From: Pectinatus sottacetonis
GTDB taxonomy: Bacteria > Bacillota > Negativicutes > Selenomonadales > Selenomonadaceae
Direction of reading: 5' to 3'
Assembly (NCBI RefSeq): GCF_015732155.1
Contig: NZ_WIQK01000001.1
Span: 1,746,001-1,810,000, forward strand
DNA: 64,000 bases
A model generated the notes under the pieces. That model ran no database searches. It saw nothing but the letters and a program-made list of their open reading frames with translations, and was not told where the DNA came from. Positions 23,410 to 44,207 of the stretch are shown in pieces. Both the position numbers and the translations under genes were made by a program. Each line of letters starts with the position of its first letter. Position 1 is the first letter of the stretch.

Positions 23410-23495
23410 TGGTGGGCAGGGATGGATTCGAACCATCGTAACCTCACGGTGACAGATTTACAGTCTGTTCCCTTTAACCACTCGGGCACCTACCC
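23410..23495 (-). tRNA. tRNA-Tyr (GTA), copy 1
   Basis: 86-nt gene with encoded CCA. The acceptor stem GGGTAGG/CCTGCCC, anticodon GTA in CTGTAAA, a long variable arm and GGTTCGAATCC T-arm identify a class II tRNA-Tyr. Confidence 0.95.
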
Positions 23496-23503
23496 ATGTA
23501 AAA

Positions 23504-23581
23504 TGGTGACCCTGGCAGGATTCGAACCTGCGACCTTTTGATTCGTAGTCAAACACTCTAATCCAACTGAGCTACAGGGCC
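23504..23581 (-). tRNA. tRNA-Arg (ACG), copy 1
   Basis: 78-nt gene with encoded CCA, acceptor stem GGCCCTG/CAGGGTC and anticodon ACG in GACTACGAATC. The first A is expected to become inosine. Confidence 0.95.
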
Positions 23582-23599
23582 ATATGAAATTGTAAAATA

Positions 23600-23685
23600 T
23601 GGTGGGCAGGGATGGATTCGAACCATCGTAACCTCACGGTGACAGATTTACAGTCTGTTCCCTTTAACCACTCGGGCACCTACCC
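23600..23685 (-). tRNA. tRNA-Tyr (GTA), copy 2
   Basis: 86 nt, identical in sequence to the copy at 23410-23495 as far as I can read. It belongs to a tandem duplication of a Tyr-Arg pair with a period of about 190 nt. Confidence 0.95.
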
Positions 23686-23692
23686 ATATAAA

Positions 23693-23770
23693 TGGTGACC
23701 CTGGCAGGATTCGAACCTGCGACCTTTTGATTCGTAGTCAAACACTCTAATCCAACTGAGCTACAGGGCC
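23693..23770 (-). tRNA. tRNA-Arg (ACG), copy 2
   Basis: 78 nt, the same as the copy at 23504-23581. It is the first gene of the minus-strand tRNA array in transcription order. Confidence 0.95.
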
Positions 23771-32079: not shown

Positions 32080-32715
32080 TCAATATGAATGGGAATAATC
32101 GGCACATTTTTTATTTATTGAAGCTAAAAGAGAAGAGCCGCTTTTTTTGGTAGAAATTTCCAGTTTACTGTCGTATTCTGATGTTTTAAGCCATGCCGGA
32201 ATATGGGAACATACAAGATCAAGACGCATGAAGGGAGTTGTATCAATAAATTTCCGCAGGGCTTTTTTAGAAGAAATATCTGGATAAGCTTTTTGCAGCT
32301 TTATGAGATCAAGATAATAAATACCATCAGTGGTTTCTACAGGAACTGTAGGTACAGAAACATTGCTGTTTATTTGGTGCAGACTCTTATAAATATCAGT
32401 AATTATTTTATTGAGCATATTTTTATCAAGCTTGTCTATCTCAAAAATAGCGAATTTCATTCGATCAAATACATTGTAGATCAATCCGTTAATTGACATG
32501 GAGGCAATTATCTGGCAGTCATCAAGTTTTAAAATCAGGTTGCGAGTATAGTCTCTTATTTCCTGCGTTGTTTTTATGTTGGTAAAATTAAACGGAAAAC
32601 GCTTGCGTATATACCAGTCATTATTATCGTTTTCAAAGATGATTATATGAGAAAGGCCGATGAAATCTGTCAAAGTATTATTCTCATCACAGGTAACAGC
32701 AATTTTTTTGTTCAT
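32080..32715 (-). CDS. AnfO-like nitrogenase accessory protein
   Basis: 211-aa protein starting MNKKIAVTCDENNTL, a pattern I associate with the AnfO family (first described beside Fe-only nitrogenase genes). The segment LILKLDDCQIIASMSINGLI also fits. No anfHDGK genes are seen here, so it would serve the Mo enzyme or act as a regulator. Assignment is from memory of the family and moderate. It is divergent from nifH across about 600 nt. Confidence 0.5.
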   Translation of the reverse strand: MNKKIAVTCDENNTLTDFIGLSHIIIFENDNNDWYIRKRFPFNFTNIKTTQEIRDYTRNLILKLDDCQIIASMSINGLIYNVFDRMKFAIFEIDKLDKNMLNKIITDIYKSLHQINSNVSVPTVPVETTDGIYYLDLIKLQKAYPDISSKKALRKFIDTTPFMRLDLVCSHIPAWLKTSEYDSKLEISTKKSGSSLLASINKKCADYSHSY

Positions 32716-33126: not shown

Positions 33127-33155
33127 TTGACAAGGATTAAACAATGCTTTATAGT
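33127..33155 (+). promoter_or_regulatory. Sigma-70 promoter of the nifH operon
   Basis: TTGACA at 33127-33132, exactly 17 nt, then TATAGT at 33150-33155. It predicts a leader of roughly 180 nt before nifH. A second -10-like TATAAT at 33223-33228 lies inside an inverted repeat and has no good -35. Confidence 0.65.
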
Positions 33156-33207
33156 TACAACATCGGCAAAACTTAACAACTTAACACTATAAAAAAACAA
33201 AATAATA

Positions 33208-33293
33208 ATTATATAAGGATGCTATAATACCCTATATAATTTAAAAAGGACAAAGTAGTCCCGCCCTGCTGAAAAGCGAGGTGGGATTTTTTT
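33208..33293 (+). promoter_or_regulatory. nifH leader attenuator: hairpin, ANTAR-like hexaloop and intrinsic terminator
   Basis: In order: a long AT stem-loop (about 33208-33242, arms TTATATAAGG and CCCTATATAA); a hairpin GGAC-AAAGTA-GTCC (33248-33261) whose hexaloop has A at position 1 and G at position 4, the ANTAR-RNA pattern; and a terminator with arms 33260-33270 and 33275-33285 (GAAA loop) followed by seven T. The hexaloop stem and terminator share bases 33260-33261, so they compete. It ends about 48 nt before the nifH start. Confidence 0.65.
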
Positions 33294-33305: not shown

Positions 33306-34163
<858 letters not shown>

Positions 34164-38425: not shown

Positions 38426-39772
38426 ATGAGTAAAGGCATTTTAGAAGTGCGTAAAAAGTCAATAATGGTGAAAAATCTTGGCTGCAGCGGAACCGGTATA
38501 GATTGCGATAAAGCAAGTGTTTCTGGTGCTGTTAGTCAAAGAGCCTGTGTTTATTGCGGGGCGCGTGTTGTGTTGAATCCCATAACAGATGCATTCCATA
38601 TTATCCACGGTCCTATAGGATGTGCCAGTTACACATGGGATATCCGCGGAAGCTTATCAAGTGGTAGTGAAATTTATCGCAATAGTTTTTCTACTGATTT
38701 AAGAGAAAAAGATATAATTTTTGGCGGAGCCAAAAAACTAACAGCAGCAATAGATGAAATAGTGGGAAAATATGCACCTAAGTTAATATTTGTTTATGCC
38801 ACATGTATTGTAGGCGTAATTGGTGATGACGTGGAAGCAGTATGTAAAGATGCCGAAAAAAGATATGCCATACGTGTTATTCCGGTGAAAGCTGCCGGCT
38901 TTTCCGGGACGAAAAGGCAGGGCTATAAGCTTGCCTGTGATGCAGTTATGAAACTTATTCGTCCGTATAAACTTGTGGGAAAAATGTCCCATCATGGACT
39001 CAATATATTAGGAGATTTTAACTTAGCAGGCGAAATGTGGCTTATACAGAATTATTTCAGGAATATAGGTATTGATATAGTATCAACTTTTACGGGTGAT
39101 GCTTCCTATGATAAGCTGCTAAAAGCACCAGCAGCAGCACTCAATATCGTGCAGTGTGCTGGTTCTTCGATTTATATGGCCAACTTAATGGAAGAAGAGT
39201 TCGATATTCCTTTTATAAAAGTAAGTTTTTTTGGTATTGAAGATACCAGTGCCTCTATAATGCAGGTTGCCAATATATTGGGCGATGAAACAGTAATTGC
39301 CAGGGCAGAAGAATTTACCAGCAGGGAAAGTGCCAGACTGAGAAAATTCGTGGACAAATACAAGAAAAATTTTCTTGGCAAAAAAGCGGCTATTTATGTT
39401 GGCGGTGGATTTAAAGCTATTTCCTTAATACGGCAGTTCAATGAAATGGGGATTCAGACAGTTGTAGTAGGTACGCAGACGGGCAGAAAAGACGAATATG
39501 AAATTATCCAGAGCATAGTAAATGAAGATACTGTAATATTGGATGATGCCAACCCGGCAGAACTGGAGTATTTCATGAAACAAAAACATGCTGATATCCT
39601 GGTGGGGGGAGTAAAAGAACGTCCTCTGGCATATAAACTGGGTATTGCCTTTTGCGATCACAACCATGAAAGAAAACATGCGCTTGGTGGTTATGAAGGT
39701 GTAGAGAACTTTACTAAAGAAATTAATTTGAGTATAAATAGTCCTGTGTGGGATTATATGACGGCTATATAA
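38426..39772 (+). CDS. nifE: Nitrogenase cofactor scaffold protein NifE
   Basis: 448-aa NifD paralogue that with NifN holds the precursor during FeMo-cofactor assembly. SGAVSQRACVYCGARVVLNP and GPIGCASYTWDIRG are NifE signatures. It lacks the NifD cofactor histidine motif. The ATG at 38426 has AAAGGA ten nt upstream. The leader carries a terminator. Confidence 0.95.
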   Translation: MSKGILEVRKKSIMVKNLGCSGTGIDCDKASVSGAVSQRACVYCGARVVLNPITDAFHIIHGPIGCASYTWDIRGSLSSGSEIYRNSFSTDLREKDIIFGGAKKLTAAIDEIVGKYAPKLIFVYATCIVGVIGDDVEAVCKDAEKRYAIRVIPVKAAGFSGTKRQGYKLACDAVMKLIRPYKLVGKMSHHGLNILGDFNLAGEMWLIQNYFRNIGIDIVSTFTGDASYDKLLKAPAAALNIVQCAGSSIYMANLMEEEFDIPFIKVSFFGIEDTSASIMQVANILGDETVIARAEEFTSRESARLRKFVDKYKKNFLGKKAAIYVGGGFKAISLIRQFNEMGIQTVVVGTQTGRKDEYEIIQSIVNEDTVILDDANPAELEYFMKQKHADILVGGVKERPLAYKLGIAFCDHNHERKHALGGYEGVENFTKEINLSINSPVWDYMTAI

Positions 39773-39822
39773 ATAAAGATAATAATATATTCATTTGGTA
39801 TAGAGAGAAAGGAAGGGCGGTC

Positions 39823-42480
39823 ATGGAAAATGCCGTTAATTTAAATATAAATCCCTGCAAAATGTGCGTGCCATTGGGTTCTGTAACAGCATTGTACGGT
39901 ATCGCCCGCTGTATGTCCATTCTGCACGGATCACAAGGGTGCAGTACATATATAAGGCGCCATATGGCAACCCATTATAATGAGCCGGTTGACATTGCAT
40001 CTTCTTCGCTCACAGAAGAAGGAACAGTTTTTGGTGGAGAAAAAAATCTTGTAACAGGACTGGAAAATTTAATAAGACTTTATGAACCGGAAGTCATTGG
40101 AGTATCAACGACCTGTCTGGCGGAAACGATCGGCGAAGATGTTCCGGCCATAATAAAAAAGTTTTATGAAAAACATCCTGAATGTAAAGCCAAGATCATT
40201 CCTATATCCTCTCCCAGTTATGCAGGCACCCATTTTGACGGATTCTTTCGGGCGTTAAGAGCTGTAGTGCAATATGCTGATATGGATACCAGTAAAAATA
40301 ATAAGATCAATATAGTAACAGGTATGATATCACCTGCTGATACCAGAGAGCTGAAAGATTTATTGGAAATTATGGGGATTGATTATATCCTTTTACCTGA
40401 TTTGTCAGATAATCTTGACGGTATACATGTAGATAAATATGACCGCTTGCCCAAGGGAGGCACTCCGCTAAGTGAGATAGCAAAAATGGCAGGGGCAAAA
40501 TATACAATAGAATTATCGACGTTCAATACAGAAGAATTTTCTCCGGCGGTTTATTTAAATAAGAAATATGATATACCTTATTGTCGGCTTGATCTGCCAA
40601 TAGGTCTGAAAGCAACAGATGCTTTGGTCAGCAAACTTAAAGAATTAGGTGGGGAAGTGCCGGAAAAACTAAGGGCGCAGCGTGGACGTTATCTTGATGC
40701 AATGGTAGATTCACACAAATATAATGCCATCGGTCGGGCGGCAATATTTGGAGAACCGGATTTTGTCAAAGGAATGGTGAACTTATGCTGTGAAAATGGA
40801 GTGATTCCGGTGTTGTGTGCTACTGGTTCAGTATGCCATACGTTTACCGATGTACTGGAAAAGCAGGTAAAAACAGCAGCAGATCTTCAATTTGTAGATA
40901 AAACTGCCATAGAAGATGATGCAGATTTTACAATGATCGAAAATCATGTAGTTGGCTGCGGAGCAAATATAATGATTGGCAGTGGTGATGGATACAGAAT
41001 TGAAGAAAAAACAAAAGTACCATTGATTCGCTGCACTTTTCCGATACATGACCGTGTAGGAGGACAACGAGTACAGATGATGGGGTATGCAGGGTCTATG
41101 AAAATTCTTGATAATATAGCAAATACCCTTTTGGCAAGACTCGAAACCGGTTATAGACAGGAAATCTATACAAAGTATTTTCATAATGGGACACCAGAAA
41201 AAATCCAGGAAAATAAAATTGTTGATATAAACAAACGGCATGTTTTACAGGAAAAAACTCTAAAACATCCCTGCTTTACCTGTGGAAGCGGGCAGTATGC
41301 CAGAATACATCTGCCGATAGCACCAAAGTGTAATATCCAGTGCAACTATTGTGTACGCAAATATGACTGCCCTAATGAAAGCCGTCCCGGAGTGACTACT
41401 GAAATATTATCACCGCAGGAAGCATTTGATAAATACATGCTCGTCAAAAAGCGGGTACCAAACCTGACCGTAGTCGGGATTGCCGGCCCCGGTGATGCTT
41501 TAGCTAACTTTGAGCAGACTAGGCAGACATTGCAAATGATAAGACAGGCAGATGATAAGGTCACGTTTTGCCTATCGACAAATGGACTGATGCTGCCACA
41601 GTATGCGCAGGATATTATAGATTTGGGTGTCACGCATGTTACAGTTACACTCAACGCAGTAGATCCTAAAATAGGTGCCAAAATATATAAACATGTTGAT
41701 TATATGGGGATGCGGTACACAGGAGAAAGCGCAGCTGGAATCCTTTTGGGAAATCAGCTCAATGGTATTCGTTATCTTACGAGACATGGTATTATTTGCA
41801 AAATAAATATTGTTATGCTCAAGGGGATTAATGAAGAACATATAGTAGATATAGTAAAAAAGGTAAAAGACCTGGGGTGTGAAATAACTAATATAATGCA
41901 GTTGATTCCAGTGAAAGGCAGTGCTTTTCAGGATATGCCGCTGGTTTCCAATAAAGAAATAACGCAAATGCGTAAAAAATGCGGCGAACACATGAAGCAG
42001 ATGTACCATTGCAAACAATGTCGTGCTGATGCTATAGGGACGTTGGGAAATGATCTGTCCATAGAATATCGTAAATGTACAGGAACAGTAAATGATGCTG
42101 CAGATAAAGATAAAATGTATCGTTTCGCTGTTGCCACCAAAAGCGGTATGCTGGTTGATAATCATTTTGGTCATGCCAATGAATTTTATATCTATGAAAG
42201 TAACGGCAGCCAGGTTCGCTTTATCGAAAAGCGCAATGTGGAAAAATATTGTGTCGGCAAAGAGCTGTGCGATGATAAGATGGATAAAATAGAAAAAATA
42301 ATCTTAGCTATAAAAGATTGTGCAGCTGTTATAACTCTGCGGATAGGGACTTCACCACAAAAACGTCTTGAACAAGAAAAAATAGATGTTATTGTCACAT
42401 ATGATCGTATTGAGAATGCTGTAAAAAAAGCTGCATTGGCAAAAAAAAATACCGGCGAATTATTGGATACAGCATTATAA
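39823..42480 (+). CDS. nifN-B: NifN-NifB fusion protein with C-terminal NifX/NafY-like domain
   Basis: 885-aa fusion. Residues about 1-440 are NifN (PCKMCVPLGSV, HGSQGCSTYIRRH). Residues about 480-770 are NifB with the radical-SAM motif CNIQCNYC, HPCFTCGSGQYARIHLP and the GIAGPGDALA segment. Residues about 775-885 match the NifX/NafY/NifB-tail domain (ATKSGMLVDNHFGHANEFYIY). NifB makes NifB-co, which NifEN converts further, so fusion puts supplier and acceptor in one chain. A NifN-B fusion is known from Clostridium. ATG at 39823 has AAAGGAAGG upstream. Confidence 0.95.
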   Translation: MENAVNLNINPCKMCVPLGSVTALYGIARCMSILHGSQGCSTYIRRHMATHYNEPVDIASSSLTEEGTVFGGEKNLVTGLENLIRLYEPEVIGVSTTCLAETIGEDVPAIIKKFYEKHPECKAKIIPISSPSYAGTHFDGFFRALRAVVQYADMDTSKNNKINIVTGMISPADTRELKDLLEIMGIDYILLPDLSDNLDGIHVDKYDRLPKGGTPLSEIAKMAGAKYTIELSTFNTEEFSPAVYLNKKYDIPYCRLDLPIGLKATDALVSKLKELGGEVPEKLRAQRGRYLDAMVDSHKYNAIGRAAIFGEPDFVKGMVNLCCENGVIPVLCATGSVCHTFTDVLEKQVKTAADLQFVDKTAIEDDADFTMIENHVVGCGANIMIGSGDGYRIEEKTKVPLIRCTFPIHDRVGGQRVQMMGYAGSMKILDNIANTLLARLETGYRQEIYTKYFHNGTPEKIQENKIVDINKRHVLQEKTLKHPCFTCGSGQYARIHLPIAPKCNIQCNYCVRKYDCPNESRPGVTTEILSPQEAFDKYMLVKKRVPNLTVVGIAGPGDALANFEQTRQTLQMIRQADDKVTFCLSTNGLMLPQYAQDIIDLGVTHVTVTLNAVDPKIGAKIYKHVDYMGMRYTGESAAGILLGNQLNGIRYLTRHGIICKINIVMLKGINEEHIVDIVKKVKDLGCEITNIMQLIPVKGSAFQDMPLVSNKEITQMRKKCGEHMKQMYHCKQCRADAIGTLGNDLSIEYRKCTGTVNDAADKDKMYRFAVATKSGMLVDNHFGHANEFYIYESNGSQVRFIEKRNVEKYCVGKELCDDKMDKIEKIILAIKDCAAVITLRIGTSPQKRLEQEKIDVIVTYDRIENAVKKAALAKKNTGELLDTAL

Positions 42481-42510: not shown

Positions 42511-43443
42511 ATGATAACAGATGCAACTTTGTGTTATATGGAAAAAACGTCAAAATATCAGCAGTATCGTATTTTAAAAAATCTGGCAAAACTATCTGTT
42601 GATGCCATAGAAATGACAGCTTCAGTATGGCAGAACCTTGCTGACATGGTTTTGCCGCCGTGTAAGTATGTACTGCGCGTAAAAGACAAAACAGACATAT
42701 ATAATTTTAAAGGGTTTCATAGATATGTTATTGCTCAAAAAGATGACAGTGCTGATAATGTTTTCATAAGACAGAAAATATTATCAGCACAAGGAAAGTG
42801 TATAGGAGTACGGATTAAAGGCTGTACCACTTTGTCAGTGCCAGACATGCAAAAACAATTTGCTGAATGGAAGAAAAAGAAAAAGCAGGTATCATTTGAG
42901 CCACTGGATTATTTAAACCAGGCCGCAGCATTAGCTGCAGGCTGGTTATTGAACGATGGGTATGGAGTCGTTACTGCTTTTTGCGGCCTTGCATCCCATG
43001 CTCCCTTAGAGGAAGTTTTGCTGACACTCCATTTACTGGGAATAAAACAATTGCAAGGAAAGCTTGATTTTTCGGAACTAAAAACAATAATGGAACAGGA
43101 AAATATAATTATACCAGCAAATAAGCCTGTTATTGGAGCATCAATATTTGCAGTAGAGTCAGGCATACATGTAGATGGTATATTGAAGAATCCTCATCTT
43201 TATGAACCATATCCACCGGAATTAGTAAATTCCAAACGCCATATAATACTGGGTGACAGTTCAGGAAAAAGTGCAGTAGAAGCCAAAATGCGGGAACTGC
43301 AAATTAATTATCATCAAGTAAATATGACTGATATCTTAGAAAAAGTAAAAAGAAAATCACGGTCTTTGTGCCGATCGATAACAGATAAGGAGTTTTGTGA
43401 GTTACTGGGGATTGGTGGGAATAAAAAACCATGCTTGAGATAA
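42511..43443 (+). CDS. nifV-omega: Homocitrate synthase, omega subunit
   Basis: 310-aa protein corresponding to the C-terminal part of homocitrate synthase. The HCS/LeuA family stretch ESGIHVDGILKNPHLYEPY and the preceding GYGVVTAFCGLASHAPLEE are visible, but the DTTLRDG catalytic N-terminus is absent and instead encoded by the next gene. Residues 1-110 look like a degenerate barrel portion. This two-gene arrangement is known in Clostridium pasteurianum. It supplies homocitrate for FeMo-cofactor. The next gene overlaps by 13 nt. Confidence 0.88.
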   Translation: MITDATLCYMEKTSKYQQYRILKNLAKLSVDAIEMTASVWQNLADMVLPPCKYVLRVKDKTDIYNFKGFHRYVIAQKDDSADNVFIRQKILSAQGKCIGVRIKGCTTLSVPDMQKQFAEWKKKKKQVSFEPLDYLNQAAALAAGWLLNDGYGVVTAFCGLASHAPLEEVLLTLHLLGIKQLQGKLDFSELKTIMEQENIIIPANKPVIGASIFAVESGIHVDGILKNPHLYEPYPPELVNSKRHIILGDSSGKSAVEAKMRELQINYHQVNMTDILEKVKRKSRSLCRSITDKEFCELLGIGGNKKPCLR

Positions 43444-44207
43444 ATAATACTCAGTACCATATTGTTGATACAACACTGCGGGATGGAGCCCAAAGCCCCT
43501 TTATCATGTTTAGTGATAGAGAAAAGATTGCTATAGCTGAAATGTTGAATGAAAAAGGCGTTTATCAGATAGAGGCTGGAATTCCTGCAATGGGAAAGAG
43601 TGAACAAATGATAATAAAAAAAATAAAAAGTGTCTGCGGTAATATGAAAGTATCAGCATGGAACAGGTTGAATAAAAATGATGTTATTGCTTCGACAGGC
43701 TGTAATGCTGATATTATTCATATAAGCGTGCCGGTATCACAGCGGCAGATCCATGATAAACTGAAAAAAGATGAAACATGGATAATTAAAAAAATAGAAG
43801 AAGTATTGTCATTTGCTGAGGACAGGGCTAACGCAATAACCGTTGGTCTGGAAGATGCATCGAGAGCAGATATGGATTTTATTATTACTGTTATAAAAAA
43901 AGTACAGCAATTTAGTGTAAATACAGTCAGATATGCCGATACAGTAGGAATTATGACACCTATTGCAGTTTATCAGCAGATAACACAAATAATAAAGAAA
44001 ACAAATATCGAAATAGAGTTTCATGCCCATAACGATTTAGGAATGGCAGTGGCAAATTCGATAGCAGCTGTACAGGCCGGTGCTGCTTTTATAGACACTA
44101 CAGTCAATGGAATAGGTGAACGCTGCGGCAACTGTGATATGGATAAATTTGTATTTGCTGCTTCATCAACATTTAACAGCGGGAAAAGTGAGAGGGTTGA
44201 AAGGTGA
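43431..44207 (+). CDS. nifV-alpha: Homocitrate synthase, alpha subunit
   Basis: 258-aa catalytic TIM-barrel half. VDTTLRDGAQSP carries the metal-binding Asp and catalytic Arg; EFHAHNDLGMAVANS provides the two metal histidines; NGIGERCGNCD closes the barrel. It lacks the C-terminal regulatory and lid domain, which the upstream omega gene provides. Substrates are 2-oxoglutarate and acetyl-CoA. Confidence 0.92.
   Translation: MLEINNTQYHIVDTTLRDGAQSPFIMFSDREKIAIAEMLNEKGVYQIEAGIPAMGKSEQMIIKKIKSVCGNMKVSAWNRLNKNDVIASTGCNADIIHISVPVSQRQIHDKLKKDETWIIKKIEEVLSFAEDRANAITVGLEDASRADMDFIITVIKKVQQFSVNTVRYADTVGIMTPIAVYQQITQIIKKTNIEIEFHAHNDLGMAVANSIAAVQAGAAFIDTTVNGIGERCGNCDMDKFVFAASSTFNSGKSERVER

Follow-up and report, generated by a model that had tools for sequence, protein, structure and literature searches.

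A candidate single-hexaloop ANTAR antitermination leader upstream of nifH and within a nitrogen regulon of Pectinatus and its relatives

RESULTS

The leader of nifH in the window (the whole 64,000-nucleotide stretch of DNA analyzed here, from a 2.69-Mb genome of the beer-spoilage genus Pectinatus, family Selenomonadaceae) is probably a single-hexaloop ANTAR antitermination attenuator that belongs to a nitrogen regulon of Pectinatus and its relatives. We observed mutually exclusive RNA folds, a conserved loop and closing pair, a regulon of similar leaders, no canonical first hexaloop (P1), and an ANTAR-kinase gene pair.

Features of the nifH leader

33127 to 33155, plus strand: predicted sigma-70-type promoter, TTGACA (33127 to 33132), 17-nt spacer, TATAGT (33150 to 33155)
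33156 to 33164, plus strand: TACAACATC, directly past the −10 box in the predicted start region; similar in the nifH leaders of relatives
33207 to 33241, plus strand: AU-rich hairpin at the place expected for P1; no ANNGNN hexaloop at its tip and no conservation of its sequence
33248 to 33261, plus strand: ANTAR-type hexaloop hairpin (P2), a putative antiterminator; GGAC (33248 to 33251), loop AAAGTA (33252 to 33257), GTCC (33258 to 33261)
33259 to 33293, plus strand: intrinsic terminator, its first bases shared with the P2 hairpin; stem 33259 to 33286, seven T 33287 to 33293
33342 to 34163, plus strand: nifH, first gene of the downstream operon, ATG at 33342

A sequence-only reading of this DNA had proposed a consensus promoter, a GGAC-AAAGTA-GTCC hairpin with A1 and G4, a strong terminator overlapping the hexaloop before nifH, and the lack of a second canonical hexaloop. 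All four points were borne out: the promoter reads directly as TTGACA-17-TATAGT and matches the consensus at 11 of 12 positions, the hairpin carries both bases, the overlapping terminator is evident from folds, energies, and the T7 tract, and the hairpin at 33207 to 33241 has no A1/G4 hexaloop at its tip. The leader, ~130 nt long with ~85 nt before P2, folds at −27.8 kcal/mol (z = −3.25), and none of 200 shuffles folded equally well. Its GTCC arm is common to the P2 hairpin and the terminator, and the hexaloop fold (−4.0 kcal/mol) and the terminator fold (−21.1 kcal/mol) are mutually exclusive; alone, the terminator wins. A simple terminator scanner run on the plus strand did not list the terminator at 33259 to 33293, probably because of internal mismatches in its stem. 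A script applied to both strands found an A1/G4 hexaloop whose 3′ arm opens a terminator at one place in the window, before nifH, where 0.15 would be expected per Markov-random window. No Rfam leader family (T-box and others) reached its gathering score in the window, in which the matches were four tRNAs only; a tRNA gene pair at 23413 to 23770 on the minus strand is duplicated in tandem with identical scores.

After nifH, the operon continues with two PII-type nifI genes, nifD, nifK, nifE, nifN-B, and the nifV parts, and the NifH protein is 92 to 94% identical to those of other Pectinatus. A single 910-amino-acid frame (39748 to 42480) joins NifN, NifB, and a NifX-like tail. Homocitrate synthase (42511 to 44207) is divided into two overlapping genes, the one for the C-terminal part preceding the one for the N-terminal part, which we take to be comparable to nifV-omega/alpha of Clostridium pasteurianum. 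Upstream of nifH, the product of the divergent gene at 32080 to 32715 (minus strand) resembles AnfO, an accessory protein of the Fe-only nitrogenase, with a TIGR02940 score of 95.8 bits, under the cutoff of 129; a third nifH copy is nonetheless missing from this genome.

Conservation of the hexaloop at nifH loci

NifH searches in the family and the order yielded nine close nifH copies, including that of the window: five from Pectinatus, two from Propionispira, and two from other genera. The same predicted promoter boxes stand upstream of the terminator in all nine leaders, together with a C[ANNGNN]G hairpin whose 3′ arm starts the terminator, whereas the surroundings diverge and the terminator sequences differ among them. 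The Pectinatus hexaloops are GGAC[AAAGTA]GTCC, GGAC[AAAGAG]GTCC, GGAC[AAAGAT]GTCC (two species), and AGGAC[AAAGAA]GTCCT; Propionispira arboris and P. raffinosivorans have GGAC[AGAGAC]GTCT, and the two other genera have GAC[ATTGCA]GTC. Conservation of the loop bases in relatives, one of the checks named by the sequence-only reading, holds in nine of nine close leaders: A1 and G4 are kept, as is the C:G pair that closes the loop. The further (third-copy, alternative) nifH genes of three Pectinatus and both Propionispira likewise have AGAGC[AAAGGT]GCTTT or GGTAC[AAAGAG]GTATC plus a terminator, and the second, operon-internal nifH copies have no such leader upstream. In the 80 named NifH loci, the element was otherwise confined to two MAGs, one of Clostridia and one of Desulfoscipio. 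The nifH leader of Megasphaera cerevisiae has AAGAT[AATGAC]GTCTT, an A1/G4 hexaloop that opens a terminator and is closed by U:G rather than C:G, a possible wobble-closed version of the hexaloop. The conserved loop bases, together with the presence of an ANTAR protein in the genome (see below), support the reading of the nifH leader as a candidate for ANTAR-type antitermination control.

For an analysis of stem covariation, 29 leaders were assembled from gene homology or from a pattern in which nothing but the closing pair was fixed. The closing C and G, A1, and G4 were invariant, partly because the search patterns required them. Stem cells were paired in 84.8% of cases versus 69.2% in shuffles, double changes numbered 40 versus 15.5, and the covariation score was 0.617 versus 0.296, with none of 500 shuffles reaching the observed value. 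Sliding the stem partner by a single base made pairing collapse.

A wider set of nitrogen-related leaders

Pattern searches were carried out in five genomes, and the flanks were then read; gene names rest on the reading of translations. In the window genome, the same design precedes at least a nitrilase-type hydrolase gene, an M20 hydrolase/deaminase operon (whose element lies 619 bases past the window end), polyamine-transport-like genes, and an M20 hydrolase gene with a transporter gene. In the other genomes, it stands before purine permease/deaminase genes, amtB, hutH, a cytosine permease gene, and genes for amino-acid ABC transporters, diaminopropionate ammonia-lyase, and M20 hydrolases. 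The element of the M20/deaminase operon is kept in two Pectinatus species, in Propionispira, and in a further genus, and that of the diaminopropionate lyase gene is present in two genera. The putatively controlled genes are mostly nitrogen related. The glnA (GSIII) leaders showed no hexaloop-terminator element. In one genome, two hexaloop-terminators occupy divergent leaders, before a PAS-type regulator gene and a corrinoid-protein-like gene.

Matches to CAAAGNNG+T7 formed an overlapping terminator in 22 of 125 instances, compared with 1 of 58 for the control pattern CAAACNNG, in which G4 is changed (Fisher P = 0.0015). Stems were long in the matches with a terminator and mostly not in those without. 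Doubtful matches in the set are leuS, cobH, a TonB receptor gene, and a LarA-like gene. A repeated element, GACATAGTTGTCAGTACG, matched the pattern in many copies and was set aside, as it shows no terminator. A repeat containing GACATAGTTGTCAGTACGATTAAAAACAGG lies in at least eight places on one contig of the window genome and is probably part of a mobile element.

The ammonium-transporter genes of the genus were then all collected by Pfam family, without recourse to the motif. A C[ANNGNN]G hairpin opening a terminator was found in 7 of the 8 amtB leaders, with all five species represented, although by descent the seven cases are perhaps two or three independent ones. The stem takes the form AGGC[ANNGNN]GCCT or one close to it, and the loops are AAAGAA, AGCGCA, AACGCA, and AGCGTA; positions 1 and 4 are fixed and positions 2, 3, 5, and 6 vary, matching the prediction from ANTAR recognition. 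A stretch of ACATC/GCATCA after the −10 box, as at 33156 to 33164, is common to the nifH and amtB leaders of Pectinatus and could reflect a start-site preference or a protein site.

These comparisons bear on another reading, in which the terminator would act constitutively, as an attenuator or a barrier to read-through, and its 5′ arm would give rise to the hexaloop by chance. Terminators are common, and the leuS match, from one genome, is indeed a T-box terminator that met the pattern by chance. Such an origin is nonetheless extremely unlikely for the nitrogen leaders, given the stem covariation, the behavior of the G4 control pattern, the motif-blind amtB result, and the functional coherence of the targets.

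Absence of the first hexaloop

Published sets of ANTAR RNAs consist of dual hexaloops (PMC3369931, PMC8164766). In vivo, deletion of P1 or mutation of its loop reduces or abolishes induction through EutV (PMC3369931), and the affinity of NasR for a lone P2 is about 12-fold weaker (PMC7496416). Compared with the published dual-hexaloop motif, the leaders described here have the loop, the closing pair, the terminator exclusion, and an ANTAR protein in the genome, but not P1. Between the predicted start and P2, ANNGNN hairpins of at least three pairs were candidates in only 4 of 45 leaders, and a C:G-closed ANNGNN hairpin upstream of P2 was found in none of the 45. A stricter dual-hexaloop search detected 0 of the 9 close nifH leaders yet recovered the textbook dual motif in the Desulfoscipio nifH leader, which served as a positive control. 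Among 40 leaders with a good predicted promoter, the −10 box ends 6 to 26 nt before P2 in 23, leaving no more than ~20 nt of RNA and therefore too little for a hairpin plus a linker.

Could these leaders nevertheless be ordinary dual-hexaloop leaders in which P1 has degenerated, through a shortened stem, another loop size, or conversion into the AU-rich hairpin at 33207 to 33241? An upstream hairpin does exist in Pectinatus nifH leaders, and one species has CTGCA[ATTGTT]TGTAG directly before P2. However, the upstream hairpin is not conserved and carries no A1/G4 hexaloop in the remaining eight nifH leaders, the dual-motif search was negative where its control was positive, and in the nitrilase, M20, amtB, and ABC transporter leaders, the likely −10 box is too near P2 for any P1. 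We regard a degenerate P1 as unlikely. The AU-rich hairpin in particular is unlikely to serve as P1, because no C:G-closed P1 was found, many leaders are short, and the dual search was negative. The missing second hexaloop of nifH appears as a general feature of the larger nitrogen regulon, which goes beyond what the sequence-only reading saw.

The ANTAR protein and its kinase

The window genome encodes exactly one ANTAR protein (E = 1.1e-19), by Pfam and PDB alignments a REC-ANTAR response regulator of the EutV/PdtaR type. The presence of such a protein in the genome was another check named by the sequence-only reading, which it passes. The gene does not lie near glutamine synthetase, where that reading had suggested a search, nor is it linked to nitrogen genes. 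It lies just 3′ of a kinase gene whose product has GAF_PdtaS, PAS-like, and HisKA_2 domains (PdtaS/EutW-like). The regulator aligns with EutV (6wsh/6ww6) at 9e-44 and also with 1s8n (Rv1626, a putative antiterminator). Six of the seven RNA-contact residues of EutV are identical (R142, K143, K149, E160, Y164, and M172) and K147 is replaced by R; to map the EutV residue numbers, positions in the chain were shifted by two. The window genome showed no sign of hexaloop autoregulation of the ANTAR gene. ANTAR scored above the cutoff in 51 of 61 family genomes. Hexaloop-terminator matches numbered 25 in 12 ANTAR-positive genomes versus 4 in 8 ANTAR-negative ones (P = 0.008), a comparison confounded by base composition and kinship and taken as supporting only.

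Recognition of the hexaloop by another RNA-binding protein or a small regulator, in place of the ANTAR protein, would fit the lack of a direct link between the ANTAR gene and the targets. Against it, EutV and NasR have exactly these determinants (A1, G4, and a closing C:G pair), the RNA-contact residues are conserved in the REC-ANTAR protein, and ANTAR-negative relatives largely lack the element. Such a substitute is, in our assessment, very unlikely.

DISCUSSION

From these features, we infer the following course of events under ANTAR control. RNA polymerase would start at the promoter at 33127 to 33155, with the RNA 5′ end placed by prediction, and by default would stop at the terminator at 33259 to 33293. 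Under nitrogen shortage, a signal suggested by the target genes, the adjacent GAF/PAS/HisKA_2 kinase would phosphorylate the single REC-ANTAR regulator, which would then dimerize and bind the GGAC[AAAGTA]GTCC hexaloop as the RNA emerges. The bound hexaloop would withhold its GTCC arm from the terminator, and transcription would run on into nifH. The same one-hexaloop device would serve the nitrogen-acquisition operons of Pectinatus and relatives, with P1 unused, in contrast to eut, nas, and ami. Binding to a single hexaloop is feasible, because in the EutV crystal structure a dimer engages one hexaloop (PMC8934654). One possible reason why P1 can be dispensed with is that P2 emerges among the earliest tens of nucleotides of the RNA; the ~85 nt before P2 in the nifH leader speak against an effect of the start site alone.

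In principle, nif genes under ANTAR control are already known. GnfK/GnfR reportedly control nif genes in Geobacter sulfurreducens, as Ueki and Lovley are said to have described in 2010. For Pelobacter carbinolicus, an ANTAR regulon including nitrogenase was predicted under a dual-hairpin model (PMC3369931). Geobacter/Pelobacter and Pectinatus would share ANTAR-type antitermination before nitrogenase genes; however, they belong to different phyla, and Pectinatus has one hexaloop and a broader regulon. The closest likeness in components is to EutV/EutW of the Enterococcus faecalis eut genes (PMC3369931, PMC8934654), which also combine a REC-ANTAR regulator with a HisKA_2-type kinase and an A1/G4 hexaloop with a closing C:G pair in a hairpin mutually exclusive with an intrinsic terminator. 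In that system, two hexaloops 5 to 12 nt apart are obligatory and the targets are ethanolamine genes, whereas Pectinatus has the terminator-proximal hexaloop only, often near the predicted transcript 5′ end, and its putative targets serve nitrogen acquisition. NasR-nasF of Klebsiella (PMC7496416) likewise places an A1/G4 hexaloop with a closing C:G pair ahead of nitrogen genes, and a lone P2 is bound by NasR, though weakly; unlike the Pectinatus regulator, NasR is a one-component NIT-ANTAR sensor and needs two hairpins for full affinity. The Desulfoscipio geothermicus MAG likewise has an A1/G4 hexaloop overlapping a terminator before nifH but in the canonical dual form, TTTAC[ACGGAA]GTAAA plus ATGC[ATTGAG]GCAT, indicating that nothing about nif itself dictates the single form.

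In the literature searched, no single-hexaloop antitermination regulon is described, and to that extent the proposed regulon is new. The 2022 EutV structure showed a dimer touching a single hexaloop at any one time; why two are needed and what weight single sites carry was not settled there (PMC8934654). The Pectinatus leaders are natural candidates for single-hexaloop antitermination, and some, at ~50 nt, are short enough for in vitro transcription. We consider it reasonably likely that a single A1/G4 hexaloop suffices for ANTAR antitermination and that it forms a genome-wide nitrogen switch of Selenomonadaceae, spanning nitrogenase, ammonium transport, and organic-nitrogen scavenging. If true, sufficiency of one hexaloop would contradict the model in which P1 loads the protein in time, and dual-motif covariance searches may miss a whole class of targets. 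The single-hexaloop design would offer a unifying model of nitrogen control for a family whose members live in the gut, the rumen, and breweries.
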